Shown here piece by piece: positions 1 through 27,456 of a stretch of 28,347 nt of DNA (position 1 is the stretch's first letter; each line of letters begins with the position of its first letter). Position numbers and translations under genes: made by a program. Origin of the DNA: a virus; the IMG/VR virus record IMGVR_UViG_3300047477_000310, positions 1-28,347 of that record. One strand, 5' to 3'. The notes under the pieces were generated by a model. The model saw only the letters and a program-made list of their open reading frames with translations, was not told the origin of the DNA and searched no databases.

Positions 1-1510
1 ATAATTCAACAGTTACTAGTCTTTCTGCTTTACCTTTAACAGTTAAACCATCACCTGATATAGATACTCCTGTGATATCTTCTAATGAAGCTGTATTAGG
101 TGTATATAAAGTATATCTAGAACTTCTTTCATTACTTGGTGTTTTAACATAGAGATAGAGAGGCTCTCCTTCATCTCTAGCGGGACTGAATGTATGTGAG
201 AAGTTACCTAATGTATTAATAGGTCTTGTAGTAATTAAGGTATAAGTATTATCATATATCTCTAATGTACTATTAGCTAAAGCTGTCCCTGATAGAGATA
301 CTCCTGTAGCGTTAATAGTAGCTGTAGTTACTGCTGGAACTGGTTGAGTTACACCTGTTAACGCTACTCTAGCATCTATACTAAATACATTGTTTTCGTT
401 TACAATAGTACTCCCTGATGAGTCTGTAGTACAATATACAAATACTTCACCTTTTATTCTATATACATCTGTATTATTATAACCTTGTAGTGGATCTGTT
501 CTGATTGTACTAGTTAAAGCTAGAGTTACATCACCTGTGCCTGTTGCGTTATATTTGTAATTATAATCAAATAAAGAAATAGTAGTAGTGTCGTTAGAAG
601 TTCTAATATAACCATCTGTATTTATGTTTTTTAAATACACTACATTAGCAGTTTTTCTACTAAATACACTAGTAGTGTCTGCTGTAGTTTCACTTAATAC
701 ATCTGATACTTTATTTGTAAAGGTTGTATTTTTTGCTGCTGTTAAATATTGTCTATCTAAATCACTTCCTGGATTTACATCATTAGTGGTTAAGCCTAAG
801 TCTCCAATATCTACTGCTGGTGTCATATTAGTGTACGAAGAACCATTCCAATAATAAACATCATTACCTGATGTATCAACGTATAACCTATTAGCTAGAC
901 CTGTTGCTGGAAAACCTGAAAAAGCACTAAAAGATAATTCTTTATTAATATAAGTATCTGGTACTTTACCTGAAGATAATGGAGCTATAGTTGTTCCAAT
1001 TCGGGTTGTAAATTCTGTAGCTACTTTAGTATTAGTATAAGTATTAGAAGTAGTAACTGCGTTATTAGCTGCTGTCGTAGCGAACGCTCTGTCGCCATGT
1101 GGGTCCGATGCAGCTATATGGGTACTAATCTGTGTATTAGTATAAACTCTGTCACCATGAGGATCTGATGCGCTTGTATGAGCAGTTATTGCTGTATTAG
1201 TACTTGATGTTGCAAAAGATCTATCCCCATGAGGATCTGTAGCAGATATGTGAGTAGATAATAAACTTGATGCATGTGCTCTATCTCCATGAGGATCTGA
1301 AGCTGCAATGTGTGTACTGATTTTACTGTTAACGTTTGTATTTAAGTTAGTAGTAAATTCAGTAGAAGTTAATATATAGTTAGTTAGATTAGTTAAACTA
1401 ATCTTCTCTGCTTTAGTTACACCTGTTCTTTGTACTGGTAATTCAGTTGTTGCATTTATAGCACCTGCTGTAGACAGGTCTTTAATTTGAATCCCTATTA
1501 AATCAGCCAT
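1..1510 (-). CDS. Tail fibre protein with DPHGDR repeats and Ig-like domains (3' end outside window)
   Basis: The reading frame opens at ATG 1510-1508 and stays open to the window edge, so about 503 N-terminal residues are seen and the C-terminus is missing. An AGGA ribosome site lies about 8 nt before the start, and the preceding gene ends 3 nt away. The N-terminus (MADLIGIQIKDL) is followed by four HxxAxDPHGDR units at residues 67-141. Near residue 210 comes a GLANRLYVDTSGNDVYYWNG stretch, a motif common in phage fibre and appendage proteins. From about residue 395 there is a beta-rich segment (ATINATGVSLSGTALANSTL) that starts again near residue 480 as TGVSISGDGLTVKGKA. These look like tandem bacterial Ig-like domains. 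The architecture fits a long, trimeric side fibre; the receptor-binding tip lies outside the window. The family call rests on motifs and composition only. Confidence 0.8.
   Translation of the reverse strand, partial: MADLIGIQIKDLSTAGAINATTELPVQRTGVTKAEKISLTNLTNYILTSTEFTTNLNTNVNSKISTHIAASDPHGDRAHASSLLSTHISATDPHGDRSFATSSTNTAITAHTSASDPHGDRVYTNTQISTHIAASDPHGDRAFATTAANNAVTTSNTYTNTKVATEFTTRIGTTIAPLSSGKVPDTYINKELSFSAFSGFPATGLANRLYVDTSGNDVYYWNGSSYTNMTPAVDIGDLGLTTNDVNPGSDLDRQYLTAAKNTTFTNKVSDVLSETTADTTSVFSRKTANVVYLKNINTDGYIRTSNDTTTISLFDYNYKYNATGTGDVTLALTSTIRTDPLQGYNNTDVYRIKGEVFVYCTTDSSGSTIVNENNVFSIDARVALTGVTQPVPAVTTATINATGVSLSGTALANSTLEIYDNTYTLITTRPINTLGNFSHTFSPARDEGEPLYLYVKTPSNERSSRYTLYTPNTASLEDITGVSISGDGLTVKGKAERLVTVEL
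1088..1312 (-). repeat. Four DPHGDR repeats in the tail fibre shaft
   Basis: Residues 67-141 of the fibre carry HIAASDPHGDR, HISATDPHGDR, HTSASDPHGDR and HIAASDPHGDR, spaced 20, 24 and 20 residues apart. The protein motif is strict, but the DNA varies at synonymous sites (for example cct-cat-gga against cca-cat-ggc). The repeats are therefore old and kept at protein level, not recent duplications. Similar DPHG/DPHP repeats are known from shafts of phage fibres, where the histidines may bind metal along the trimer axis; that role is an inference here. Confidence 0.85.
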
Positions 1511-2543: not shown

Positions 2544-3176
2544 TTACATAGCTGCTAATACAAATGAATAGTGAACACCCACATTGTATGTAGTGTGTGC
2601 ATATAAAGCAGCATCCATGCTGTTCCCAATATCTTCACTCATGGAATAGTTGTTGGAAAATGCCCCCCAATTGTTGAATGGTGTACCACTTAAATTCGTT
2701 GTGACAATGAAAAATTTACGATTAGTGTTACTGCTGTTTATTAGATGAATAGCGGGGTTGCCATTGGGTAACGCCATTTCCTCAATAGTTAAATCTGAAA
2801 TAAATTGCGGTAGCGTATCGACAAAATTTTGAACCGTTGCATCTTCGGCAGCTATATAAGTCATTAGGGTTTCATAGCTGCCGTCCAAATTCTGCTCAAC
2901 AATTTTAATTGCCCCTGAAAAATACTGATTTAGACTATAAACAAACCCTATTGCAATATGGCTTGTTGCATTTGACGCATCAATAACAATACCAGTACCA
3001 CCAGTACCACCACCATTATCCCCACTAGGTGCTAAGCAGAACGTAACTTCGCCATTTTCGCTAATATCTAAGGTCGGGTTTTCTACTCCAATGTTAGCAG
3101 AAACTCCTGCACCAGCCTTTGGGATTAAACGAATACGTTTAATCGAATCTGAAAGATTTTTAAAATTAAGTTTCAT
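2544..3176 (-). CDS. Small tail fibre or receptor-binding protein, 210 aa
   Basis: The start is ATG 3176 with GGAG about 7 nt upstream; the gene follows the 805-aa fibre gene by 11 nt. A basic N-terminus (MKLNFKNLSDSIKRIRLIPK) leads to a flexible glycine linker (GDNGGGTGGTG) near residue 55. A compact C-terminal domain of about 145 residues follows, beginning IVIDASNATSHIAIGFVY and ending HYSFVLAAM. The Gly-rich hinge between a small anchor and a globular domain suits a receptor-binding tip or decoration protein. The DNA is clearly GC-richer (26 of 60 at 3061-3120) than the upstream baseplate genes, which suggests separate acquisition. No family is recognised. A terminator follows directly. 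Confidence 0.75.
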   Translation of the reverse strand: MKLNFKNLSDSIKRIRLIPKAGAGVSANIGVENPTLDISENGEVTFCLAPSGDNGGGTGGTGIVIDASNATSHIAIGFVYSLNQYFSGAIKIVEQNLDGSYETLMTYIAAEDATVQNFVDTLPQFISDLTIEEMALPNGNPAIHLINSSNTNRKFFIVTTNLSGTPFNNWGAFSNNYSMSEDIGNSMDAALYAHTTYNVGVHYSFVLAAM

Positions 3177-3187
3177 AATATACTCCG

Positions 3188-5605
3188 TTATGTTGCGAAG
3201 AAGCAGCGATAAGGAGGAAGACCGCGAGGCATATCCTCTTCACTAAAAGTATTCCCTTCATCTAGGATGTAGAAGAATGTATTGTTATAAGCAGTCGCAT
3301 CGTAGTAGGTGATACCAAACGAGGTGTTATTAGCGATTGAGAACATATTGTTATGGGCATATAAACCATGTGGCTCTAACTGTATGGCTAACTGTTCCCC
3401 AATATTGTTATAAGGGTCAGGACCCTGCGCAACCATAGGGGTTGTGATAGATTCACCGTCTGGAGTCAATGCAATAGGAATGTATATAGTAGAGCCTGCT
3501 TGGATTGGGTAGGGCAGAAAAACTGATCTGTAATATCCCTCAGGACAACAGCTAGGATGGTTAGTGATGTGGGATGACTCGTTAATCAAGTAACTCTCAA
3601 TCTGTTGAGGAGTTACATCTGTAAGAATCCTTACTCCATCAATCTCTAAATCCCATAATCCTCCAATATCTATACAGCCTGATGTATTAGTAGCACCATC
3701 ACACGTAACTTCAGTTTCAGATTCTCTATTAGCTGATAGACAAGCCCCAACATGATTTCTATTGTTTCCATCTATTTGATTAATAGTAGGGTTATCCCAC
3801 ATATAAACTTTTATGTGTTCAGTATTAGTTATTATTTCAATTCTTTTAGGAACACTTGTTCCATTAGAAAGTTTAATACTATCAACAAACTCAAACCCAT
3901 CTTCAACTAAAAATGGAACTTCTAAAGAATCTATTGGTTCTATGTTAAGCCCGATAACAACTTCTCTAAAAGTGTGAGGAACACCATCAACAATAAGCTG
4001 TAGTGATGCAGACAAATCCTCTGAATTTTCCAAACCATATTCATCAACTGCTAATATACAATGAACTGAATTTGTAGCACCCTCGCAACTGTCGAGGGGT
4101 ACAGGAACTTCAATATTTTTATTCGTTTGTTTTAACATTAAGCATAGGTTATCTTTTTGTCTAGTATTAACTATTTCATTAATCTTTCTAGGGTAAATAT
4201 CATACAACTTACAATTAGCTACATCATAAGTATCTGCATCTAAGGTACTACTAGCTACCATTCGTTTTAATTTTAATTCAGCCCCAATACTGCCTAACAC
4301 ATTACTTGTGTTGTTAGTATCAGTAATAGAGTATTTAGTATCTACTAAACCTAATACTTTAAATATTCCGTTATTTTGAATGTACTCAATTCTATCTAAA
4401 GGTAAAGTAGCTAAGTTTGTGGTATTATTATAAATGTAATTACCATAACTATAATCAGAAGAACTTACTCTATATGCTGATAATCTAATATTTTCAATAG
4501 TGTTTAATAAGTCATTACCTATAGTAGAATCTTCTCTTAGTGTATTATAAACAGATACATCTAAATTTTCATTAGATAATACGCTTGATTGAATGCTAAT
4601 TTTTACATACATACTGTATATGTCTTGGTCATTCTTTATTGAATTACTACCTATCGTATTAATTGATAATATCTTTTTAGTTCCATTCAAACCTATAGAA
4701 GAGCTATTATTTAATTCAATCCAATAATTTTTATCTGTTGATACTTCAATTTTAATACCTTCTGTTATAGTACTAGAATCTACCGCTAACTTTAATATAG
4801 GATCTTCTGTACTAATAGGACCTAATATAATATAACCATTACTTAGTATATTACTATAGTATGTCTCTATTCCTTTTAATAGAACACTGTCACTTTCTCT
4901 TGAAGCTAATTGTATAATTATTTGATCAGTAACTACAGGAGTAATATTAAATATATATAAGTTATCTTTTACTCTATTATCATTTAAACTATAGTTTCTA
5001 GTATTAGTATCTAAGATGATTATATCTTTTAAATTATTTTCATGATCTACATATTTAATAGATAAGATATCAGGATATGCTTCTGTTAATAGACCTAATT
5101 GTAATACTATAGTATTAATTTGTTCTTGAGTTTGGTATCTAAGATTTAGATCAAAAGTAAAGTTTTTATTAGGGAATTTAACTTCTATTTCAGTTTTAGT
5201 TTTAATTAAATCATTTAAATAACTTTCTTTACCGTCAATAGTATATAACTTATAAGTACTAACACTAGTTAAACTAGATAGACTTGCATCTATTTCTTTT
5301 AACTCATTTGTTATATAATCTAATTCAAATTTACTATCTTTAATTTTTATACCTTTATTTTCTATAACTTTTAAATTAGTTAGAGGTATAATGTTTTTAG
5401 CTGATCCATTTAATACTCTTAAATCTGTTAACATATCACCTAATACTGATATTTTATTTTTTAAAGTAGTAACACCCTGAGTAACGTTAGTTAATAGGTT
5501 ATATGTTTCAGTTGCTAATTTATTAGTTTGTTCTGTTTCAATATTGAAAGTACTAGCAATATCACTATAAAGTTCTTTTACTTTAACTAAAGAATTATTA
5601 TACAT
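3188..5605 (-). CDS. Tail fibre/baseplate appendage protein with swapped-looking C-terminus, 805 aa
   Basis: It starts at ATG 5605, overlaps the end of the upstream gene by 8 nt, and has AGGAG about 8 nt upstream. The N-terminal 130 residues are helical and heptad-like, suggesting a trimeric coiled-coil stem. Residues about 140-480 are beta-rich and repeat the general layout of the 412-aa protein encoded upstream (for example the NLRYQTQEQINTIVLQ region). A Cys motif, CxGATNxxxC, occurs twice, starting at C507 and C635; a CC pair follows near residue 685. The last 170 residues (LYAHNNMFSIANNTSFG, RGLPPYRCFFAT) are encoded by DNA of about 40-42% GC, well above the body. I interpret this as an appendage protein whose tip is exchangeable. 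The family is not identified. Confidence 0.75.
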   Translation of the reverse strand: MYNNSLVKVKELYSDIASTFNIETEQTNKLATETYNLLTNVTQGVTTLKNKISVLGDMLTDLRVLNGSAKNIIPLTNLKVIENKGIKIKDSKFELDYITNELKEIDASLSSLTSVSTYKLYTIDGKESYLNDLIKTKTEIEVKFPNKNFTFDLNLRYQTQEQINTIVLQLGLLTEAYPDILSIKYVDHENNLKDIIILDTNTRNYSLNDNRVKDNLYIFNITPVVTDQIIIQLASRESDSVLLKGIETYYSNILSNGYIILGPISTEDPILKLAVDSSTITEGIKIEVSTDKNYWIELNNSSSIGLNGTKKILSINTIGSNSIKNDQDIYSMYVKISIQSSVLSNENLDVSVYNTLREDSTIGNDLLNTIENIRLSAYRVSSSDYSYGNYIYNNTTNLATLPLDRIEYIQNNGIFKVLGLVDTKYSITDTNNTSNVLGSIGAELKLKRMVASSTLDADTYDVANCKLYDIYPRKINEIVNTRQKDNLCLMLKQTNKNIEVPVPLDSCEGATNSVHCILAVDEYGLENSEDLSASLQLIVDGVPHTFREVVIGLNIEPIDSLEVPFLVEDGFEFVDSIKLSNGTSVPKRIEIITNTEHIKVYMWDNPTINQIDGNNRNHVGACLSANRESETEVTCDGATNTSGCIDIGGLWDLEIDGVRILTDVTPQQIESYLINESSHITNHPSCCPEGYYRSVFLPYPIQAGSTIYIPIALTPDGESITTPMVAQGPDPYNNIGEQLAIQLEPHGLYAHNNMFSIANNTSFGITYYDATAYNNTFFYILDEGNTFSEEDMPRGLPPYRCFFAT

Positions 5606-8179: not shown

Positions 8180-8518
8180 TTATATGTCTTCAATTCTAGT
8201 TGTTATACTTATCTCTGGATAGTAGTATAAGATTAAAGTAAAATTTTCAGCTTCTTCATTAAAACCATCTGATCTTATTTTAAAAGTTAATTCACTAGTA
8301 AAATTCTCATCTAAAACAAATAAACCATATTCTTCAGAAGGAATATAATCACTTTCTCTTACGTCTCCAACTATTCTATACGGTATCTTTAAACCTTCTT
8401 TTACATCAGGCCCTAAAGCATTAAGAGTAATAGTAAAAGACTCACCTTCACTAACTTCCGTATGAGAAGAAGTTAGTGCAAAAGTTATATTTAATTTTTT
8501 AGTATCATGTTGTTTCAT
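8180..8518 (-). CDS. Small Calx-beta-like domain protein, 112 aa
   Basis: I place the start at ATG 8518 because AAGGA lies about 6 nt upstream (8524-8528). A longer frame could begin at GTG 8560, but it has no ribosome site and would start inside the inverted repeat of the fibre switch. Residues 9-100 follow the Calx-beta pattern: NITFALTSSHTEVSEGESFT, then IPYRIVGDVRESDY, a FVLDENF turn, and a closing ELTFKIRSDGFNEEAENFTL. Calx-beta and related beta-sandwich domains are common in extracellular and phage adhesion proteins. It lies directly beyond the invertible fibre tip and could cap, chaperone or decorate that fibre. Both arms of the switch leave its ribosome site intact. Confidence 0.7.
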   Translation of the reverse strand: MKQHDTKKLNITFALTSSHTEVSEGESFTITLNALGPDVKEGLKIPYRIVGDVRESDYIPSEEYGLFVLDENFTSELTFKIRSDGFNEEAENFTLILYYYPEISITTRIEDI

Positions 8519-8549: not shown

Positions 8550-8777
8550 GGTAACTTCACTCACCAACTTACAGTTGATGAAATGCCCATACACCAAGCG
8601 GAGGCAGATGATTACAACACTGTTGGTGGTACATATGCTAATGGGGATATGCACTACGGAGAACCTGGTTTTGGTACGTTTCAAGGGGTTTGGAAGTCTA
8701 AACCTATTGGTGGAGATCAACCTCACAATAACATTCAACCAAGTATTATAACTCATGTATGGGAAAGAATAGGGTAG
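8550..8777 (+). pseudogene. Silent alternative tail-fibre tip cassette
   Basis: On the plus strand, a frame opens right after a TGA at 8547-8549 and reads GNFTHQLTVDEMPIH, ending in the cap PHNNIQPSIITHVWERIG and a TAG stop at 8775-8777. The active fibre gene encodes GDFTHQLTVEEL and the same 18-residue cap, but the sequence between the two is unrelated (here EADDYNTVGGTYANGDMHYG). There is no start codon before the internal ATG 8583 and no ribosome site, so this is not an independent gene. It is a tip awaiting fusion: inversion between the repeats would join it in frame after residue 1047 of the fibre. It is GC-richer (about 45-48% on counted lines) than the fibre body. Its LTVDEMPxH motif is closer to the usual collar-domain consensus than the active copy. 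Confidence 0.88.
8554..8578 (+). repeat. Left inverted repeat of the fibre-tip switch
   Basis: This 25-bp sequence (begins ACTTCACTCACC, ends ACAGTTGA) is the exact reverse complement of 9019-9043. With one mismatch the identity extends over 30 positions (8549-8578 against 9019-9048). It encodes the FTHQLTV stretch of the collar domain and contains the 13-bp core CAACTTACAGTTG, whose 5-bp arms are symmetric around TAC. Confidence 0.92.
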
Positions 8778-8780
8778 TAG

Positions 8781-11700
8781 TTAGCCAATACGCTCCCATA
8801 CGTGTGTGATTATAGAAGGCTGTATATTGTTGTGAGGTACATCTCCACCTGAAACGTCAGTATTATGAATATAGTAGACCACACTATTATTATCCCAATC
8901 TGTGCTATGTGAACCTAGGCCATTCTGTGGATTAGGGTCTCTTGGAACGTCACCTGTTGTTGTAGAATTTTCTGGATAGTAGTAATCTTTAAATGGGTGA
9001 TTATGACTCGCCAACTCCTCAACTGTAAGTTGGTGAGTGAAGTCACCTACTTTATTTCCAGCAGCTTCTAAATCTAAACCTGAAGGTTTATTTAAACTAG
9101 GGTCAGTTTTCTCTGAGAAAGTAGAGCCTTCTGCACTGATTATTACTCGACCTGGACCATATCGTCTCCAGACACTATCAGGCCAATTCAATACAAGTTT
9201 AGGATTTCTTCCATCAGTTGTATTCATATATATAGATCCAATAGGATACGTACTATCTAAAATAGCTGCTGACATCTCTTGAATTTTACTTGATAACATA
9301 CTCAAAGTAACTACATCGCTACCTCTATTGGTTAAATCATCATTTTCTAAATCTGCAAATTCTTTAGGAATTCTAAATTTCTCTATACCATCAATCCTAA
9401 ATACAATATCACTTCCATTTTGAGAATCAATATTACGTTCAGCAAACATACCAGTATCACCATCTGGAGCACCTGAAGTACTTGAGAAAGCATAGCCGCC
9501 TGTTTCATCACCATTGCCACTTGGACTTCCTTTCCCTGCTATGTATTTAGCAGCAGATACTTTACCATTAGTACCTAATTTAACTTCGTTACTAGATAAT
9601 AATAACCCATCTGTATTTCTAGTATCTTCTATATCAGAATCACCTATAATGAAGTTACTATCGTTAGTAATCTTTACATTATTACCAAATTCAACTGTTC
9701 CATCAAATCTAGAGTTAGCTACTGGGTTAGTTTGTAACATATTGTTAAAACGTAATTCTGTTTTAACTTCTAAATTATTGACAATTAATTCTTCGTAATC
9801 AGCTGATTCAGTTACTTCTAATCTTTTTACAGTAATGTCATCAGCATCTATTTCTTTAAATTTAGTATAGTCTTTAAACTCAACTGGTTTGTTAAAAATT
9901 AAGTCATTAGTAAATTCAGTTAAACCATTAACAGTTAATTTATGATTAGCAGGTATTATTACGTTTCCAGTAAAACCAGCACTAGTAGTTATATCGCCTT
10001 TAGCAATAAATTCTTTAGCAGTTACTTTACCATAATTTAATGTAGTGTCAGATACAGAGTAAGAATTAACTACAACTAATCCTGAATTAGATTGAACGAT
10101 AGTTGATAAATTACCTAGTTCATCTCTTTGTGATAATATTTTATTTGTAGAATTTAAAATAATACCTTTAGCTAGTTCTTCATCAAAATTAATTACTACG
10201 TTTTCAACTACAGTGTTATTACAATAAATATCTGATTTCGGTACTGTTTGTAAATTCGTAACACCTTGAGAGAAAGGATAACCTGACTTAATGAAATAAG
10301 TATCACGTTTAGTTTCTACATATAAGTCAGTAGGCTCTACTACATCTGCTATGTAACTGCCTTGAGGTGTTGAAGTATAAATATATTGTCTATTGTCTAA
10401 TGATAAACCTGTTAGTCTTCCGTTGTTTTTAAAATTAACGGAATTACTAGATTTAATATTTAGTTGATCATCATAATTAATATAATCGTAAGTACTTGAT
10501 TCATGATCATCTGTATTGAATACAATCTTTTGATCTGCTGATAAATGAATCTCTTCAGCGTCGATATGTTGTGCTTCTAAGTCACTAGTAAATACTTTAA
10601 CATCGAAATGTACGTCAGATGCTCCAGTTGATGTGCCTACGTCATCTGTTTTAAAATGAAGTCCATCATTTTCTTTTACGATATCAATTAGACTTGGAGA
10701 ACCAAAAGAAATTTTAGCGCCATTGTCGATGGTTAATGTATCTTTAATTAGAGAGAAGGAAAATTCAGAATCATAACTAAGGAGTTTAGCTTTATCGTCA
10801 TCTGAAGCTACACCGCCAACTATTCTCTTACGAGTTAATTGTAATACACCTAATTGACTATCATCTTCTGACTTTAATGTTAATTTTAAAGCTCTGTTAG
10901 TATTTGAACTAATATAATTAGTATCTACAAATGAATGATCATTTACACTGATTGCTCTTTTATTTTGAGGAGTTAGAAACTTAACACCATCTTTAGAAAT
11001 ACTATCAATCCATAAACAATTATCTGATTGATTAAAATACATCTTATGTCCTGATGCATATTCACCAAATACTAACTTAACGCTATTTGCATTTAAGTTA
11101 TTTTTTCTACTGCCTGAATCCGTAGATGCTAATAATAAATCACCTAATATAGCATTGTTATAAATATTAGGGTCATTAACGAAACCTTCTCTATTTATGT
11201 ATTGTGGGTGATCGTAATTAAGCTTGTCTGATACTTTATAGTTAATTAACGCATTACCGTTTCCATCATATGTATTTTCATATAAGCCTAGTAATGCTCC
11301 ATGATTAATGTTATTCCCACCATTTGTTCCATGATCATGAGAATAGAATAAACGATAAATACTTTCTAATAAAGCTCCTATTGAAGAGTTAGCTACATAT
11401 AGTTTAACTTCAGTTGTTGCTATTGTTTCTGTAGTATTAAATCTAAAATAAGAAGTAGTAATAGAAGGAGTAGTTATTTCTATTCTTTGTCCATTCGTAT
11501 CATATACTGCTACATACTTATTTAAATCAGTTGGGTTATTATTTATTACGTTTTTTATAAACGTAGAACACATGTTTTTAAAATTGTAGCCAGATACTGT
11601 TATTTGAGTTCCTGATGTGCTGTAAGTAAATGTATTGATAATAGAGTTATCAAATTGTTTATGTTGTAAGATATTATATCTTAACTCAAAAGGCCAATTA

Positions 11701-18976: not shown

Positions 18977-19720
18977 TTATTTTCCTGAAAATATTGAAAC
19001 AGGGAAATGACAATTTTTTGATTTTCCCTGTGCAATATTAGATAAACCTTTTACTATTCCTAAAGAATCTAAGAAAATTTGACCATCTTTAGGTTTAGAA
19101 GTATCGTTCATCCAAAGAGCGTTATCTTTGAATGCTAATATTTTATTGTGCATTTTCTCATCGTACGTAAATTTCTTTAACTCTTCTACTTCTTGTTCAG
19201 AGTACCCTGCTTTATAAAAGACTTCTAAGTTAATAGGAGAAAATAAGTCAAAATTAGGATCATTGTTACGTAAGGTAATTAACATCTCAGCAGGAAATAC
19301 AGTTAAAGAGTCAGAACCTTCATCTATCTCTGCATAAATTCCTATATTATTTCTTAAGATAACTTTACATCTTTTACCCTTATATCTTTCCATATTAAGA
19401 TTAATAGCAGATAGGTTAGTTTTAATAAAAACTTCATCATGAGTTAACCCGTGTACTTTTAGTCCTTCTGCAACGTTAAAGAAACCATCACCTCCATCAT
19501 CAACTTGCTCCCCTGTATCATCTACAGTGAACATAGGTAGTTTTTTGATTAGTGCGTAAACTGAATCTTCCTTAACTAAGAGAGTATCGATCACACCATA
19601 CATAGACTGTAACTTATTATCGTTAAGTCTAGTGATGTGATCTGAGGTATCTCTTAAATTATTATTAATGCTTGAATACAAATTACCTACTTTATTATAT
19701 AAAGTATTTATTAAACTCAT
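18977..19720 (-). CDS. Candidate baseplate spike or hub-associated protein, 247 aa
   Basis: It starts at ATG 19720, overlapping the TGA of the hub gene in an ATGA junction, with AAGGA 7 nt upstream. The N-terminal 60 residues are helical (LYNKVGNLYSSINNNLRD). Residues about 110-150 (YKGKRCKVILRNNIGIYAEI) are beta-rich and could be an OB-like barrel as in phage spikes. The C-terminus ends HFPVSIFSGK. The place immediately after the hub gene corresponds to the spike gene in Mu- and P2-like phages. The assignment is positional; no diagnostic motif is seen. Confidence 0.55.
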   Translation of the reverse strand: MSLINTLYNKVGNLYSSINNNLRDTSDHITRLNDNKLQSMYGVIDTLLVKEDSVYALIKKLPMFTVDDTGEQVDDGGDGFFNVAEGLKVHGLTHDEVFIKTNLSAINLNMERYKGKRCKVILRNNIGIYAEIDEGSDSLTVFPAEMLITLRNNDPNFDLFSPINLEVFYKAGYSEQEVEELKKFTYDEKMHNKILAFKDNALWMNDTSKPKDGQIFLDSLGIVKGLSNIAQGKSKNCHFPVSIFSGK

Positions 19721-22700
19721 TTTGGATTCCTTATTGGTAAATCAGTAGAACGTCCTAGTTCTTTACTAGTTACTTTCTTTAATTGATCTTTTAGTTCTTC
19801 AGCTTTCTTTTCTTCTTTAGATAGCATTTCTACTTCCGCATTAATTGCTTTTTCTAAAGCTCTTAGTTTCTTAGAATCTTCACTTGTCACTACTTTAGGC
19901 TCTCCTCTACTATTTAACTCAATTTTATTACCTTTAAGATTTGTAGAATAAGTAATTGGCGCATTTCTTTCTTCACCCTTACCATCACCATACCAGTTAA
20001 GCATTTGTATAAATAAGTTTTGTTCAGAACCTGCTAACTTACCATTCTCTGCGATAATATTAGCAGACTTCTTAGCTTGATCAATAGTCTTACCTAATTC
20101 TTCTTTATTACTTTCCCACCAAGAATTACGTTTTAAACCAGCCATACCAGCAGTATAAGGTTTACCATGTCTTACTAATGGATAAAGAAGTAAAGGTTGT
20201 CTAATAAGTTTATTTTCTTCCATTTTATCGAAAGCCCATTGTAATGCAAAAGTAATAATAACATCAATAGCTACAGCAGCTAAGCCAGCAACAGGCAGTG
20301 CAATTAAACCTACTACCATAGCTCTAGCTAATACTTTAGCCCCAATTAAACTTGCGTGGCCTGCTGCAACCCCTGCAAAACGAATAGGAGAGAATAGTAG
20401 TTTACCTGTAAAACGAAAAGCTTTACCGACAAGCCCTACTTCTTTTGCAGAGCGAGCTGCCATACTATCTTTAAAAGATGCTTTGGCTTTCTTAGCGTAC
20501 GCTGCGTATTTTGAACCACCAATTAATTGTTTAGTTCCAGTTATTTTACCATTAATCTTTTCAACAGCATCTGTGACTTTTAAATAGTGTGCAACATCTT
20601 TACCTAATAATTTCCAGTCTGATAATTCAGCTAATGGAAATAATTCATAAAATGCTTTTATATACCTACCCGTACCTGCACCAATCACAGTTCCAAACCT
20701 GTGAGGTTTTACTCCTAGAATGCCTGCTAATTGGGTTGTTACATAAATAGATAGAGCACTAACACTACGTGTTGCTAAAGCATAGTCTGGTGACTCTATT
20801 GCATTGTCAACAGAGTTATAAATTGGAAAAGAAGAAGGTTTATCAGAAGCTATGTGTAACTGATTCATAATAGTTAAAAGATCATAAACCATGTTAAAGT
20901 CTTTAGCTGTGAAATTCTCTTTTGATATATTTCTAAGTTTAGATGTCGCAATTTTAGAACAACAAATTAATTTAAACCATAAAGACGAGTATAAAAAGTT
21001 AGCAGCTTCTACATATTGACCTGGAACGATTTCAGTAATGAATCCTCTCTTATCATCGAAATGATGAGTACATTCTCTTACTAATACTAAACCTAACATT
21101 CTCTTTTCACTGTCATCTAAAAAGACATAATCTCCTGCTTTAATAGTTGGATTACCTACAACTAAGATTTTACCTGAATACATTTTTTCAGCTTCTTTTT
21201 TAAGATCTGTAGTACCATAACAGAAAGCCATATATTTAGAAACACATGAACTTAATGTTAAATTCTTCTCTCTTAAATCCCAACTAAAAATGTTATCATC
21301 CATCTTAATTTTTTGATTTTCCATTTCCCAAGGTTTAGCCGCTATACTCTCAGATCTACTGTCTGAGTATGCTACATTAGTAACAGTAGCATAAGTAGAG
21401 TTTAATCTTAAACCATTACTAATTAAGTTATGACTTGAAGTAACTAAATGCATATCAACAGCTGGTGACATTCTTTCACGACGATGTTCGTAGTAAGTTT
21501 GAGTAGAAAAACCTAGAGTTCCACCTTCAATCTCTTTAGCAGAGTTCATTTGTGTTGCTCTATTTATATCCTTAGCAAAATACATCTGTTCTTTAATACC
21601 ATAAAACATAGTCATTCTATCTTCATAAAATTTAGGTTTCATTATAGTATTAGGATGTCTATATTCCATTTGTTTCAAACAATCCCAAGGAGTCATTCTG
21701 TAAACAGAGAAAGGATAACCTTGCATGTATAGTCCACTGAAAGAACCAGTAAAATGACTAAACCATTCACCATCTCTATAGACTTGATCTACTGCCTCAA
21801 TTTCAGGAGCGAATATATTAGAGTATATTCTACTTCTGTATTGTGCAGGCGTTTTATCAAAAAACCAATTATACGAAAAACTAAACGTTCCAGGCGCTAA
21901 TGATCTATCTTCAGGGTCAAATAAACCTTGAAATTTATCTGCCCAGAATCCACTTGAGTATCCAAAATGAGTAATGCATCTAGCTAGTAAAGATTCTCCA
22001 ATTACTCCTGCTGTACTCATATGGTCATCTTGACTATTAAGCATTACAGGTTTTACTGGTCCAAAAATCTCACCTAATAACTCTTTACCAAAACCCTCGC
22101 ATATTACTTGAACATTTTGAGGATTAGATATATTAATATCAGTAATAGTCCCATTAAAAACCACATCCAGTTTTGAAATATTATTTCCATAACCTAATCT
22201 TATATGTAGTTTTAACCCTGCTCTTAATAATATATTGTCATTAGAGAATTGAGTTTCATAATCTGTTCCAATTTTATTAGGAGAGATTCCTTGCATCTTC
22301 TTTAAACCCATGAAAGCATCAGTATTTAAAAATGAAGGATCTGCTATATCCATTACTACTACATCTACTGGATTAACGTCATTATTACAAGCCATTGAAA
22401 AAGATTTAATTCCTTTTAACTCATAATACTGAATTCCACCTTTTAATGTATTTAACCAAAACTTATCATTCTCATTACCAATAGTAACATAAACTTTAAT
22501 AGCAGGGAGTGAAGTCTTTAATCCTAAATTAACATATTTATTCATTCTTTGAAAAATAGCTTTAGCTAATTCATCTTCATTATAAACAGTATTTTCAGGA
22601 GTAACACCAGCTTTAGGTACTAGAGCGTCTAAAGAAGCCTTAGAACTAATAGGGGGTGCTGTATTATTACCTTGTCCTACTGGATCACCTGCTTTATACT

Positions 22701-25700
22701 CTGTTAATAACTTAGTACCATAAGGATTAATAGGTTTTCCTTTATATCTAACTTCATAATGTAAGTGAGCTCCTGTTGAACTTCCTGATCCTTCTTTACC
22801 AGCTACCCCTCCACTAAATCCTATATGTTCACCTGCTTGCACTCTTTTACCAGCGCTAGATATTAATGATTTAGATAAGTGTGCATAACGAGTTAAGAAA
22901 CCATTACCATGATCTATCTCAATGTAATAACCAAAACTAGGTTTACCTTGAGGAGCTACTTGGGATTTAAACTTAGCAAAACCAGAAGCTGCTGCTACAA
23001 CTTTAGTCCCTGCTGGGCATTTTATATCAATACCTTTATGATTTTTACTTACTCCTCCTCCGCCTTTACGGTTTCCAAAAGGACTCTCAGTTCTAAAAGG
23101 ACCTCCTGCTACAGGTTGATAATTATTAAATTGAACACCATTTACTTTTGAAGCATTATCTAAATCAGCCTCTGTGAATCTTAAAGTATTTTGAGCTTTA
23201 GCTTTATCAACTTGATCGTCTGTTAAGAGCCTACCATCTGTTTTAAACTGACGAGGTTTATATGCAACACCGTTAGGTAATTTCCAAATTCCTCTGTTAT
23301 TGTCTTTAGCTTCTTGTTCTGCTTTTTTATAAGCAGAATTAGAAGTAAATTTATCAGGTACAAAGCCTAATCCATTTCTTAATAATGTTAATGCTGGATC
23401 TACACCATCAGGTAAAACAATTTTAGCGACATGACGAGTGCCTGTAGTATCTGGATCCATATCGATTATGGATACAGTTTTACCAAAAGCCATTCTAGTC
23501 ATTTCTTCTTTTGCTTTATTACCTAAAATTTCAGCAACACCTATTTCAGATTGTTTTAAAGTCTTTTTATCTACTTCTCCTAAATGCGTTGTCTCTGGTG
23601 TATCAATACCGTATAAACGTATTTGAATTCTTTCTCCAGTTTTACCATCTACGAAATCTAATGTATCACCATCTTCTGTAGTTGCTGCATGCCTGCCTAC
23701 AATAACACCAGTTCTACCTCTTCCTGCTTCCACAAAATTAACAGTATCAGCTTTAGTAGGAGTTACTACAAAGTTAGAATACAATTGATCTACTTTTTTA
23801 ACGTTAGCGTTATTTTGAGGAATAGTTGTACCTTGAACTTTTTCATTAGCTTTTGTAAATATATTATTAGCTAACTTAGTGAGAGTAGGGTATGATTTTT
23901 TAGATTCAGGTGCATTAGTAAAGATACCTATGAATTCTTGAATTGCATTTGGTGAGTAACCTGCTTGTAATTCTTTTGGAACATTATTATGGGAAAAACT
24001 ACGTTCAGTTAGTACTTTAATATAGGACTCTATTGTTTCCTTATGATTACCATTCCAAATTACACCCTTTACGTTACCTTGTTGTTTAAGCATTTCAATA
24101 GCAGCTGGTGCACTTGATGATTTACCTGAGATCACGCTATATAATTGCTCTAAAGAGCCAGGACCTAGATTGTAACCTAAGTAAAGTAGTACAGGATTTT
24201 GTTGACCATTGATTAAAGTAGAATTACCATAATTTTTTCTAATATATAGTAAGTATTCTATACCACAACATGCATTAAAGAAATGATCTGTTCTTAACTT
24301 AGGTCTCTGACTTGGAGCTTGGCTAGCAGCCCATGCTTTGTCTCTACCACTAGGCAAAGGATTTCCTTGAGAATCAATAACTTTATTATTAATCATCATT
24401 AGTTGAGTCATTGCGCCATTAGTAAGTTGGAATAAACCTTGAGCACCTTCTGAATCAAATGCTTTGGGATCTGTTCCATTAGCACTCTCAATGTGTAAGA
24501 ATGAGTAAACTAATTTTCTAAAATTATCATCTTTATCATAACCATAGTGTTTTAATGCTTTTTCAATAGCATCTACATAAGGTTGTTTAATAGTGATGTT
24601 CTTACCATTACCTACTCCTAAATCAGCTGGAGAGGGATTGAGTACACTAGTAAGCATAAAAGTATCGGGTGTAATTTTATTATATTCGATTTCTTTTAAT
24701 TGTCTATAATCTACAGGTAGAGGTAATGCTGTCGCATCAGGATTATCTTTAGCTGTTTCATCTTGTTTATTCATCTTTTCTGGAATTATTTCAAGATTAC
24801 CTGTTTGAGCGTACATTTGTTCATAGGCATTTGCTAACTCTGTTCCATCTAAATGATTTCTTTCAATTAAGAAAAAGAAAGGATCGATACTTTGTACAAG
24901 TAAATCTGTATTTCTATCGTACTCTGTTGGAGATAAATCTTCTAAACTTAGATCTTCATAGTTATATCCGAAGAATGTTTGAGCATAGAATTCTGAAAAC
25001 TCTTCAAAGAATGTTCTAACTTCTGTAGAATCAATTGATTGTGCTGCTGCTTGTTCTCCGTTCTTTAATGCTGCTTCTAGATTAGAAACTACTGTAATAG
25101 CTAGATTATCAAATCTACCACTTTTGTTAAGCTTAATTCCTGGGATATTAGTTGAAACTTTTCCTTCTTGAGCACTTTGTCTAGTTAGAAGTGTTTTAAC
25201 CATGAAAGGGATAAAACCTGAGTATATTTTATAAAGAGATGCTTCTGAGAAGTTAGGATTTTTTGTTACCTTATCAACAACTAGTCTTGTACTTCCCGAG
25301 CCTGAGAAGCTACCAGCTTCTCCAAATTTACCTGATCCTCCTATTTTTACATCAGGATTCCAGTTTGGATTTTCTTTAGTTTCTACTATTTCTTTACTTC
25401 CTTCAGTATACAAATTACTACCATTAACTAAATCTTTAGGATTTAAGTCTTTAGGTAAAAGTTCTACACCTTTGATTATATTTTGTCCAGGTTGTAGCTC
25501 AGGTAATAAACTAGACATAGTTTCTAGTGCATCATTTATTTTGTTTTTTTCAAAACCTAAATCATTATAAGCTGCTATAGCTAATTCAACTATAGATTTA
25601 AATGTTTTTAAAGAATGCATGTAAGTTTCAGAAGGATTCTTACTATTCATTATATCAGGAAATATTTTAGTAAATTCAGTTAACCATCTAACAGACATCT

Positions 25701-27456
25701 CTGTAACTTTAGCTGTAGCATTACCTGTAGATAATTTACCTGATGCTCTTACTTTAGTATCCTCAATAAAAGATGTCATATCTGTTTCATTAAAAGAGTA
25801 AACAATATTCTCAACACCTTGCTGATTAGCTGATGCAGATACTACAGATTGAGATGGTACATAGTTTTCACAACCCATTACTAAGGTAGCTAGTGACCTA
25901 ACTTTTAAAAAGTTATAAGCCTCAGCTTCTGGGATATTAGATTTATTAAAATCTAATACGTTAAGTACTTGTTTTATAAAGACGTTGGTATTGTATGATT
26001 CGTCATTTTTATAAACATCTTGATTTACTGAATTCATTGAAATAGAAACAGTTGAAGGATATTTACCCATGTATTGAATAATAGGATGCTTAAAAGAAGA
26101 TATTTGATGTGATACTAATTTATTTTTTCTAGAAACTTTTATAGAAGTAATACCCATTTGTAAATCTTCTACATTACCTCCGTGCCATTGAATAAATACA
26201 CTCGAGCCACCTGATAAACTTGATTTATCTTTATTGGGATTATCTCTTTCTTCATTAGTAGCATTAACTTTACTAGCTATTGATTCAGGTGCAACACTAC
26301 TTTGTAAACCTTTTCCATTCCTGCCTACACTACTTTGTAGTCCCTTAGTTCCTTTTAAAGCTGCTAGTAATGGATTTGTATTAGGTGCCGTATTCTCTTT
26401 TTTCTTAGCTTCTTCTTTTCTGCTATCTTGAGTAGTTAATTCACCTTGTTTAATTTCATTCTCGGAGTTAACTGAGAAAGTACTTCTATTTTCGAATACA
26501 GAGTCGCTACTAAAATCCTGATTAGAAAGAGTAGCTAGTAAATTCTCATACGATCCATTATCATAATGACCTACGTTAGTTACTGTAATTACTTTACAGT
26601 CTTCTCCTACCAGTCTACCATCATCTAAGTTTTCCTCATCTTCGTTAATTACGAACATTAATGGAGCCATTAAGTTGACTCTCATAGATGGATGAATACT
26701 TTTAGTGTTTGTTGCAGACGTCTGAAGTAACCCTGTTCTTATTAATTCTTCGTATACTTTGCTTTCTTTTGGACGCATGTATTGCTTCCATACAGCAGAT
26801 TCTTGCAATGAACTACAAGGTTGATTTGGTACTTCAATTAATCTTTTTTGTTCTTCTACTTTTTTATTACTTGTAAATACTTTATCTAGGTATTTCTGCT
26901 GACTAGTTTTCTCTTGTTTTTTTACAATTTCTTCATCTTCTTCTTCACCATACTCAGAGTCAGTAACTACTTGAGTAGTTAGGTTAGATTTAAATTCAAA
27001 ATCTCTGATTAAAGCTTTGTGATTAAAATATTGAAGAACTACTTCTAAAAATAACATATTAGAAGCAGCTGCGTCTTGTACTAAATTTATTTCATCTACT
27101 GCGAACATCATGTAGCCAGTTTCTGATATAGATGTTGGTGAAATATATGTTCTTATTCTTTGATTTCGAATAAAACAAAAAGGATAAGAAGATAATTCTG
27201 TAATTAATCTAATACAGTTATATGTATTATTTAAAGTTGATGCTTCTACTTCATTTAAATGTGTTACTTGAAAAGGAATACTTAACACTACTTTAGTAGC
27301 TGAATATTTAGATCTATAACAAAATACAGCTTTAGATCTAAGATAGCTATCTTCCATAACCCAATTGTCATCCATAACCTGTACATCAGATGGGTTAATT
27401 TCCATGTTAATGTCGTTAATTATAAATAGTTCATCTTGTTTATTATTAGTTTTCAT
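19717..27456 (-). CDS. Giant tail hub with lytic transglycosylase, SNase nuclease and M23 endopeptidase domains, 2,579 aa
   Basis: Two beta-rich segments (residues about 10-160 and 420-475) and long acidic or low-complexity linkers form the N-terminal third. Residues 970-1110 form an SLT lytic transglycosylase: catalytic Glu990 in HIES, then GAQGLFQLT and LGYNLGPG. Residues about 1245-1395 form a staphylococcal-nuclease-like domain with DGDT (from D1262), RLYGIDTPE (R1280, D1285, E1288) and R1341, matching the known catalytic Arg-Glu-Arg set. Residues about 1450-1590 form an M23 metallopeptidase with H1473/D1477 (HKGID) and HLH at 1564-1566 as zinc ligands. Residues about 1650-2150 are hub-like. 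A hydrophobic stretch at about 2353-2408 could hold membrane helices. Spacing from a possible AAGGA to ATG 27456 is long. The protein probably pierces the envelope during injection; the job of the nuclease is open. Confidence 0.9.
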   Translation of the reverse strand: MKTNNKQDELFIINDINMEINPSDVQVMDDNWVMEDSYLRSKAVFCYRSKYSATKVVLSIPFQVTHLNEVEASTLNNTYNCIRLITELSSYPFCFIRNQRIRTYISPTSISETGYMMFAVDEINLVQDAAASNMLFLEVVLQYFNHKALIRDFEFKSNLTTQVVTDSEYGEEEDEEIVKKQEKTSQQKYLDKVFTSNKKVEEQKRLIEVPNQPCSSLQESAVWKQYMRPKESKVYEELIRTGLLQTSATNTKSIHPSMRVNLMAPLMFVINEDEENLDDGRLVGEDCKVITVTNVGHYDNGSYENLLATLSNQDFSSDSVFENRSTFSVNSENEIKQGELTTQDSRKEEAKKKENTAPNTNPLLAALKGTKGLQSSVGRNGKGLQSSVAPESIASKVNATNEERDNPNKDKSSLSGGSSVFIQWHGGNVEDLQMGITSIKVSRKNKLVSHQISSFKHPIIQYMGKYPSTVSISMNSVNQDVYKNDESYNTNVFIKQVLNVLDFNKSNIPEAEAYNFLKVRSLATLVMGCENYVPSQSVVSASANQQGVENIVYSFNETDMTSFIEDTKVRASGKLSTGNATAKVTEMSVRWLTEFTKIFPDIMNSKNPSETYMHSLKTFKSIVELAIAAYNDLGFEKNKINDALETMSSLLPELQPGQNIIKGVELLPKDLNPKDLVNGSNLYTEGSKEIVETKENPNWNPDVKIGGSGKFGEAGSFSGSGSTRLVVDKVTKNPNFSEASLYKIYSGFIPFMVKTLLTRQSAQEGKVSTNIPGIKLNKSGRFDNLAITVVSNLEAALKNGEQAAAQSIDSTEVRTFFEEFSEFYAQTFFGYNYEDLSLEDLSPTEYDRNTDLLVQSIDPFFFLIERNHLDGTELANAYEQMYAQTGNLEIIPEKMNKQDETAKDNPDATALPLPVDYRQLKEIEYNKITPDTFMLTSVLNPSPADLGVGNGKNITIKQPYVDAIEKALKHYGYDKDDNFRKLVYSFLHIESANGTDPKAFDSEGAQGLFQLTNGAMTQLMMINNKVIDSQGNPLPSGRDKAWAASQAPSQRPKLRTDHFFNACCGIEYLLYIRKNYGNSTLINGQQNPVLLYLGYNLGPGSLEQLYSVISGKSSSAPAAIEMLKQQGNVKGVIWNGNHKETIESYIKVLTERSFSHNNVPKELQAGYSPNAIQEFIGIFTNAPESKKSYPTLTKLANNIFTKANEKVQGTTIPQNNANVKKVDQLYSNFVVTPTKADTVNFVEAGRGRTGVIVGRHAATTEDGDTLDFVDGKTGERIQIRLYGIDTPETTHLGEVDKKTLKQSEIGVAEILGNKAKEEMTRMAFGKTVSIIDMDPDTTGTRHVAKIVLPDGVDPALTLLRNGLGFVPDKFTSNSAYKKAEQEAKDNNRGIWKLPNGVAYKPRQFKTDGRLLTDDQVDKAKAQNTLRFTEADLDNASKVNGVQFNNYQPVAGGPFRTESPFGNRKGGGGVSKNHKGIDIKCPAGTKVVAAASGFAKFKSQVAPQGKPSFGYYIEIDHGNGFLTRYAHLSKSLISSAGKRVQAGEHIGFSGGVAGKEGSGSSTGAHLHYEVRYKGKPINPYGTKLLTEYKAGDPVGQGNNTAPPISSKASLDALVPKAGVTPENTVYNEDELAKAIFQRMNKYVNLGLKTSLPAIKVYVTIGNENDKFWLNTLKGGIQYYELKGIKSFSMACNNDVNPVDVVVMDIADPSFLNTDAFMGLKKMQGISPNKIGTDYETQFSNDNILLRAGLKLHIRLGYGNNISKLDVVFNGTITDINISNPQNVQVICEGFGKELLGEIFGPVKPVMLNSQDDHMSTAGVIGESLLARCITHFGYSSGFWADKFQGLFDPEDRSLAPGTFSFSYNWFFDKTPAQYRSRIYSNIFAPEIEAVDQVYRDGEWFSHFTGSFSGLYMQGYPFSVYRMTPWDCLKQMEYRHPNTIMKPKFYEDRMTMFYGIKEQMYFAKDINRATQMNSAKEIEGGTLGFSTQTYYEHRRERMSPAVDMHLVTSSHNLISNGLRLNSTYATVTNVAYSDSRSESIAAKPWEMENQKIKMDDNIFSWDLREKNLTLSSCVSKYMAFCYGTTDLKKEAEKMYSGKILVVGNPTIKAGDYVFLDDSEKRMLGLVLVRECTHHFDDKRGFITEIVPGQYVEAANFLYSSLWFKLICCSKIATSKLRNISKENFTAKDFNMVYDLLTIMNQLHIASDKPSSFPIYNSVDNAIESPDYALATRSVSALSIYVTTQLAGILGVKPHRFGTVIGAGTGRYIKAFYELFPLAELSDWKLLGKDVAHYLKVTDAVEKINGKITGTKQLIGGSKYAAYAKKAKASFKDSMAARSAKEVGLVGKAFRFTGKLLFSPIRFAGVAAGHASLIGAKVLARAMVVGLIALPVAGLAAVAIDVIITFALQWAFDKMEENKLIRQPLLLYPLVRHGKPYTAGMAGLKRNSWWESNKEELGKTIDQAKKSANIIAENGKLAGSEQNLFIQMLNWYGDGKGEERNAPITYSTNLKGNKIELNSRGEPKVVTSEDSKKLRALEKAINAEVEMLSKEEKKAEELKDQLKKVTSKELGRSTDLPIRNPK

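Follow-up and report, generated by a model that had tools for sequence, protein, structure and literature searches.

A candidate compact inversion cassette at the tip of a tail fibre gene in a lineage related to jumbo phage

Previous studies have established that tail fibres can be altered by DNA inversion. The G segment of Mu, the C segment of P1 and the P segment of e14 are tail-fibre inversion systems (PMC12529663), and in Mu and P1 inversion exchanges alternative parts of the tail fibre, and hence host range (PMC12529663, PMC6109161). In the Min (p15B) and Rin shufflons, variable receptor-binding C-termini are recombined onto a constant N-terminus (PMC6109161), and carotovoricin is also a known case of tail-fibre inversion (PMC13195805). 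Mavrich et al. (2018) described a tail locus of about 500 bp in bifidophage 689b-1/Bb423phi2 that is inverted and has no adjoining recombinase (PMC6109161).

Here, we analyse a stretch of 28,347 nucleotides from an IMG/VR virus record (IMGVR_UViG_3300047477_000310; hereafter, the window), in which the 3′ end of a tail fibre gene lies between inverted repeats together with a second, silent tip. We are fairly confident that this locus is a two-state invertible cassette, which would swap the predicted receptor-binding loop of the fibre. The first-pass annotation of the window held the arrangement to be undescribed. Tail-fibre inversion itself is already known, and that claim is too strong, because the bifidophage locus had been published; Gin, Cin, Min and Rin share the same logic.

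Cassette architecture and the fibre gene

The segment 8554-9043 is bounded, as first annotated, by a perfect inverted repeat of 25 bp per arm (Table 1), nested in a longer pair (8549-8581/9016-9048; 33 nt, 94%). Among inverted repeats spaced no more than 2 kb apart in the window, the 25-bp pair is the longest, and it lies far beyond chance, since the longest inverted repeat reached in 30 Markov simulations was 19. Even with up to three mismatches allowed, the window holds no further copy of the 25-bp repeat (chance expectation 0). The arms enclose roughly the last 86 codons of the fibre and, on the opposite strand and tail to tail with them, a second tip, GNFTHQLTVDEM...PHNNIQPSIITHVWERIG*, which is open over 8550-8777 (+). 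This tip lacks a start, runs uninterrupted for 75 codons and has the codon phase of the fibre, in agreement with the earlier description.

Table 1. Coordinates of the fibre gene, the cassette and its neighbour in the window
Feature	Position	Strand	Description
Tail fibre gene, 1133 aa	8781..12182	-	N-terminal part phrog_5717 (PHROG 5717); C-terminal Gp10_C (PF21939)
Right arm of inverted repeat	9019..9043	-	Within fibre gene; encodes (D)FTHQLTV(E)
Tip A (reading orientation)	8781..9018	-	Variable loop, then cap DVPHNNIQPSIITHVWERIG, stop
Tail-to-tail caps, imperfect palindrome	8721..8837	.	RNA of 8700-8860: -58.6 kcal/mol, z -6.8
Tip B (silent, start-less)	8579..8777	+	Variable loop, then cap DQPHNNIQPSIITHVWERIG, stop
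Left arm of inverted repeat	8554..8578	+	Heads silent tip; encodes (N)FTHQLTV(D)
Next gene, 112 aa	8180..8518	-	Weak homologue of post-fibre gene in L005

Inversion of 8554-9043 in silico yields one ORF of 1120 aa, compared with 1133 aa in the present orientation; the first-pass annotation had anticipated an in-frame fibre of about this length. Both orientations give a complete fibre because, in both tips, the repeat falls where the variable region begins, in sequence that is conserved, and has the same codon phase. The ATG of the next gene, at 8518, and an AAGGAA-like ribosome site just upstream of it both lie outside the invertible segment, and the expectation that this ribosome site would be untouched is borne out. 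Recombination between the inverted repeats would thus flip 8554-9043 and produce a fibre of 1133 or 1120 aa with a new loop and the same cap, while the fibre trunk and the start of the downstream gene would be unaffected.

Gp10_C covers the last ~160 residues of the fibre (66.8 bits versus a curated cut-off of 27), and tip B aligns to its second half (positions 61-139; E 8.8e-6), with a score of 21.2 bits that is under the curated cut-off. The fibre probably assembles as a trimer. Searches with the fibre peptide found only two full-length homologues: ME3_46 of Acinetobacter phage vB_AbaM_ME3 (ME3; 234.9-kb genome), with 38.6% identity, and the fibre of a 183.7-kb IMG/VR contig (L005), with 54.6% identity over the fibre length. 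A DNA search for close relatives among phages gave no match, nor did a search with the repeat sequence of viral_contigs, from which near records may be missing. Gene order in the window agrees with that in ME3 and L005, so these 28 kb probably come from a large ME3/L005-like genome, of which the window would be a fragment. Elsewhere in the window, four degenerate repeats of ~49 nt, 60-72 bp apart, occur at 1076-1316, in a gene (2-1510, minus strand) with a bacterial Ig domain, and 19717-27456 encodes a 2579-aa baseplate hub-like protein with Peptidase_M23 and staphylococcal-nuclease-like (PF00565) domains.

Comparison with these two relatives places the cassette within the fibre. Residues 1057-1113 are only 19% identical to L005 and 14% to ME3, whereas the flanking residues, 1046-1056 (encoded by and around the repeat) and 1114-1133 (the cap), show 60-65% identity to the relatives, and the rest of the fibre shows ~49-65% identity to L005 and 28-64% to ME3. 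Because identity falls only at residues 1057-1113, the invertible part spans the single hypervariable loop of the fibre, and conserved sequence holds both of its borders. This fits a putative receptor-binding loop, and the collar domain whose variable loop was first annotated here is Gp10_C. The spacing between the fibre gene and the next gene is a 4-bp overlap in ME3, a 50-nt gap in L005 and 262 nt in the window. Neither ME3 nor L005 has a second Gp10_C tip; since their sites are empty, the silent tip is an extra module in the lineage of the window.

Tail-to-tail fibre tips in other phages

A DNA pattern for two tail-to-tail collar caps, which matches the window, was scanned over IMG/VR and species genomes. 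Two of the contigs found, IMGVR 3300031867_006950 (L015) and IMGVR 3300032038_000597 (L016), carry nearly the same phage region, with flanks identical at 2609/2612 positions on the fibre side (99.9%) and 558/559 on the other (99.8%). Between these flanks, a 763-bp tip cassette is inverted (560-1322 in L015, 4253-5015 in L016), with 750/763 identity when the two copies are compared inverted and 362/857 when compared directly. The breakpoints fall exactly on 13-bp inverted repeats, both arms of which co-vary between the contigs (GAGCAGTTTAAGT in L015, GAGCGTTTTAAGT in L016), and each orientation encodes a complete fibre with a different tip. This is a natural inversion, present in both orientations. 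The L016 contig also encodes a tyrosine recombinase, which we rejected as the invertase; it looks like an ordinary integrase, because it has a repressor-like neighbour and integrase N-terminal domains.

Two Treponema loci show the same layout with a serine recombinase gene directly alongside. In Treponema sp. RGIG7863 (L024, 395-2065), two tail-to-tail fibre tips have a perfect 25-bp inverted repeat, in-frame and in equal phase in both tips. In Candidatus Treponema caballi (L021), a shufflon-like array at 3308-5204 comprises one collar tip that is expressed and six that are silent, each headed by a repeat (GAACGTT.T.AT.AC.CA), and the recombinase lies at 2671-3270. Our literature search found no paper on inversion of Treponema tail fibres by a serine recombinase. 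Since none of these phages is a close relative of that in the window, the tail-to-tail layout is recurrent. A further locus (L014, 9171-9264) has a 12-codon inverted cap (MNYTVRIWKRIA) opposite a fibre cap that is intact; the inverted cap probably survives from a second tip that has been lost. Of the remaining matches, one (L013) is cut by the end of its locus, and three (L022, L023, L025) lack collar tips and are either chance matches or short hairpins; wider cap spacings of 31-61 nt gave nothing further. Eggerthella LE2-3 and Vibrio EniLVp02 were rejected as candidates for inversion cassettes; they have several collar tips, but as whole genes on one strand.

Possible routes of inversion and alternative explanations

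The adjacent serine recombinase that a Gin/Cin/Hin-type cassette would have is missing from the 28-kb window, and so is the tyrosine recombinase of a Rin-type shufflon; matches to serine (PF00239), tyrosine (PF00589) and IS110-type (PF01548) recombinases are lacking in the window, in ME3 (235 kb) and in L005 (184 kb). The window, however, is a fragment, and these two relatives also do without the cassette. The 25-bp repeat has no dyad symmetry above background, and no likeness to hixL or gix at 15 or more of 26 matches. The likelier route, we infer, is a recombinase encoded elsewhere, in the rest of the phage genome or by the host, and not by a neighbour of the cassette.

Inversion may also be real but owe nothing to a site-specific recombinase: as the phage replicates, the 25-33 bp arms could recombine homologously or undergo strand annealing, in the manner of RecA or UvsX. 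ME3 encodes a RecA homologue and, by annotation, a Rad50-like ATPase; the arms are alike at the DNA level, and both ME3 and L005 lack recognisable site-specific recombinases. Against this, arms of 25-33 bp would be short for exchange by RecA, only 13 bp are found at the L015/L016 inversion, and dedicated serine recombinases accompany both Treponema loci. We regard a purely homologous route as unlikely, though it deserves real weight. Incidentally, the RecA homologue of ME3 (KU935715.1, 93429-95469) is seen as two matches ~1.4 kb apart, with a possible intron or intein between them.

The codons of the repeats and caps bear on the history of the two tips. As first reported, both tips end in the same cap (PHNNIQPSIITHVWERIG), with 18/18 amino acids identical; at the nucleotide level 38/54 positions agree, and every one of the 16/54 differences is silent. 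When equally many changes were placed at random in the cap, none of 200,000 placements kept the protein intact. Among the 17 degenerate cap codons, 14 are silently different and only 3 are the same, fewer than the 8.6 expected from independent codon choice (P=0.004). All 7 of the full repeat codons, by comparison, are identical (7/7 versus 3/17; Fisher p=0.0003), so the repeat arms are held alike as DNA, beyond protein constraint, and the caps as protein only. Such DNA-level likeness of the arms would be expected from repeated exchange or from recognition by a recombinase. Only three bases separate the two facing caps, so identical cap codons would create a long perfect palindrome, and the surplus of silent changes is consistent with selection against one. 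As RNA, the imperfect palindrome still folds strongly. The divergence of the caps could also be older than the event that brought in tip B from another phage, and is not in itself proof of alternate expression here. A more speculative proposal is that ME3-related large phages switch only the receptor-binding loop by a minimal inversion for which the phage needs no invertase of its own: either recombination linked to replication or a recombinase of the host would act on the 25-bp coding repeats, and the facing caps would be silently recoded against a perfect palindrome; this combination we think distinctly doubtful.

Alternatively, the locus may be a dormant relic, in which tip B was inserted once, inverted, left a repeat and went unused. 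The repeat search of viral_contigs did not turn up this phage in the opposite orientation, a local recombinase is lacking, and the vestigial cap in L014 suggests that such cassettes can decay. But tip B is intact throughout in the right phase with a fully conserved cap, identical repeat codons beside silently changed cap codons are not explained by a single old event, and a single recent import would require a lucky 25-bp match; a relic is thus quite improbable. An assembly artefact or amplification chimera is scarcely credible even for a 28-kb contig that is probably a fragment, given that a palindromic chimera would duplicate one sequence and run back into the fibre, whereas here the tips differ, the left flank passes straight into the next gene, which has a ribosome site of its own and homology to the post-fibre gene of L005, and gene order is as in ME3 and L005. 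Nor do the data suggest the template/variable repeat pair of a diversity-generating retroelement, as the tips differ throughout the loop and are inverted in orientation.

Most likely, then, the locus is a compact but genuine version of a tip switch whose kind is already known, because the same architecture is found in unrelated phages, in L015/L016 it is inverted, and the Treponema tips lie beside a serine recombinase. The interpretation first given, a switch of fibre tips, finds good support in the anatomy, the codon statistics and the occurrence of the same layout in independent phages, in one case in both orientations; its claim to an undescribed arrangement falls away, and inversion in this phage itself stays a prediction.

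Comparison with known inversion systems

If active, the cassette would be a host-range switch near its minimum, confined to one loop and 490 bp, with a shared cap and untouched neighbours, and fibre inversion would then also occur in relatives of a jumbo phage; we found no description of tail-fibre inversion in a jumbo phage in the literature searched, which covered few subscription papers. Host-range switching bears on the prediction of phage-host links and on phage stocks that drift. The tail-to-tail cap pattern, which found the layout in phages that are no close relatives of this one, and once in both orientations, offers a practical way to search metagenomes for such switches.

The segments acted on by serine-invertases of the Mu and P1 type swap fibre-assembly genes too. 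The Mu G, P1 C and e14 P segments (Gin, Cin, Pin) are of kilobase size (1.8 kb in e14) and have serine invertases, whereas the segment in the window is 490 bp, exchanges one loop, and an invertase was not found. Like Gin/Cin/Hin-type cassettes, it has inverted repeats around alternative 3′ ends of the fibre gene, in-frame either way; where those cassettes have 26-bp hix/gix-like dyad sites with a 2-bp core, its repeats show no such likeness at the threshold used. The analogy first drawn to Mu G and P1 C therefore holds for the alternative in-frame tips, but not for an adjacent invertase or for hix/gix likeness. Min and Rin are multi-segment arrays with a serine (Min) or tyrosine (Rin) recombinase, a closer match to the Candidatus Treponema caballi array than to the two states proposed here. 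The bifidophage locus has an 8-bp repeat and genes of unidentified function in a temperate Bifidobacterium phage, whereas the window has a 25-bp repeat and a Gp10_C fibre whose relatives include that of a large Acinetobacter phage. The L015/L016 and Treponema loci share with the window tail-to-tail collar-type tips, WKRTA/WERTA-like caps and in-frame inverted repeats; they belong to unrelated phages, with a serine recombinase adjacent in both Treponema cases, and the cassettes of L015/L016 and L024 are larger (763-962 bp) than the one described here.
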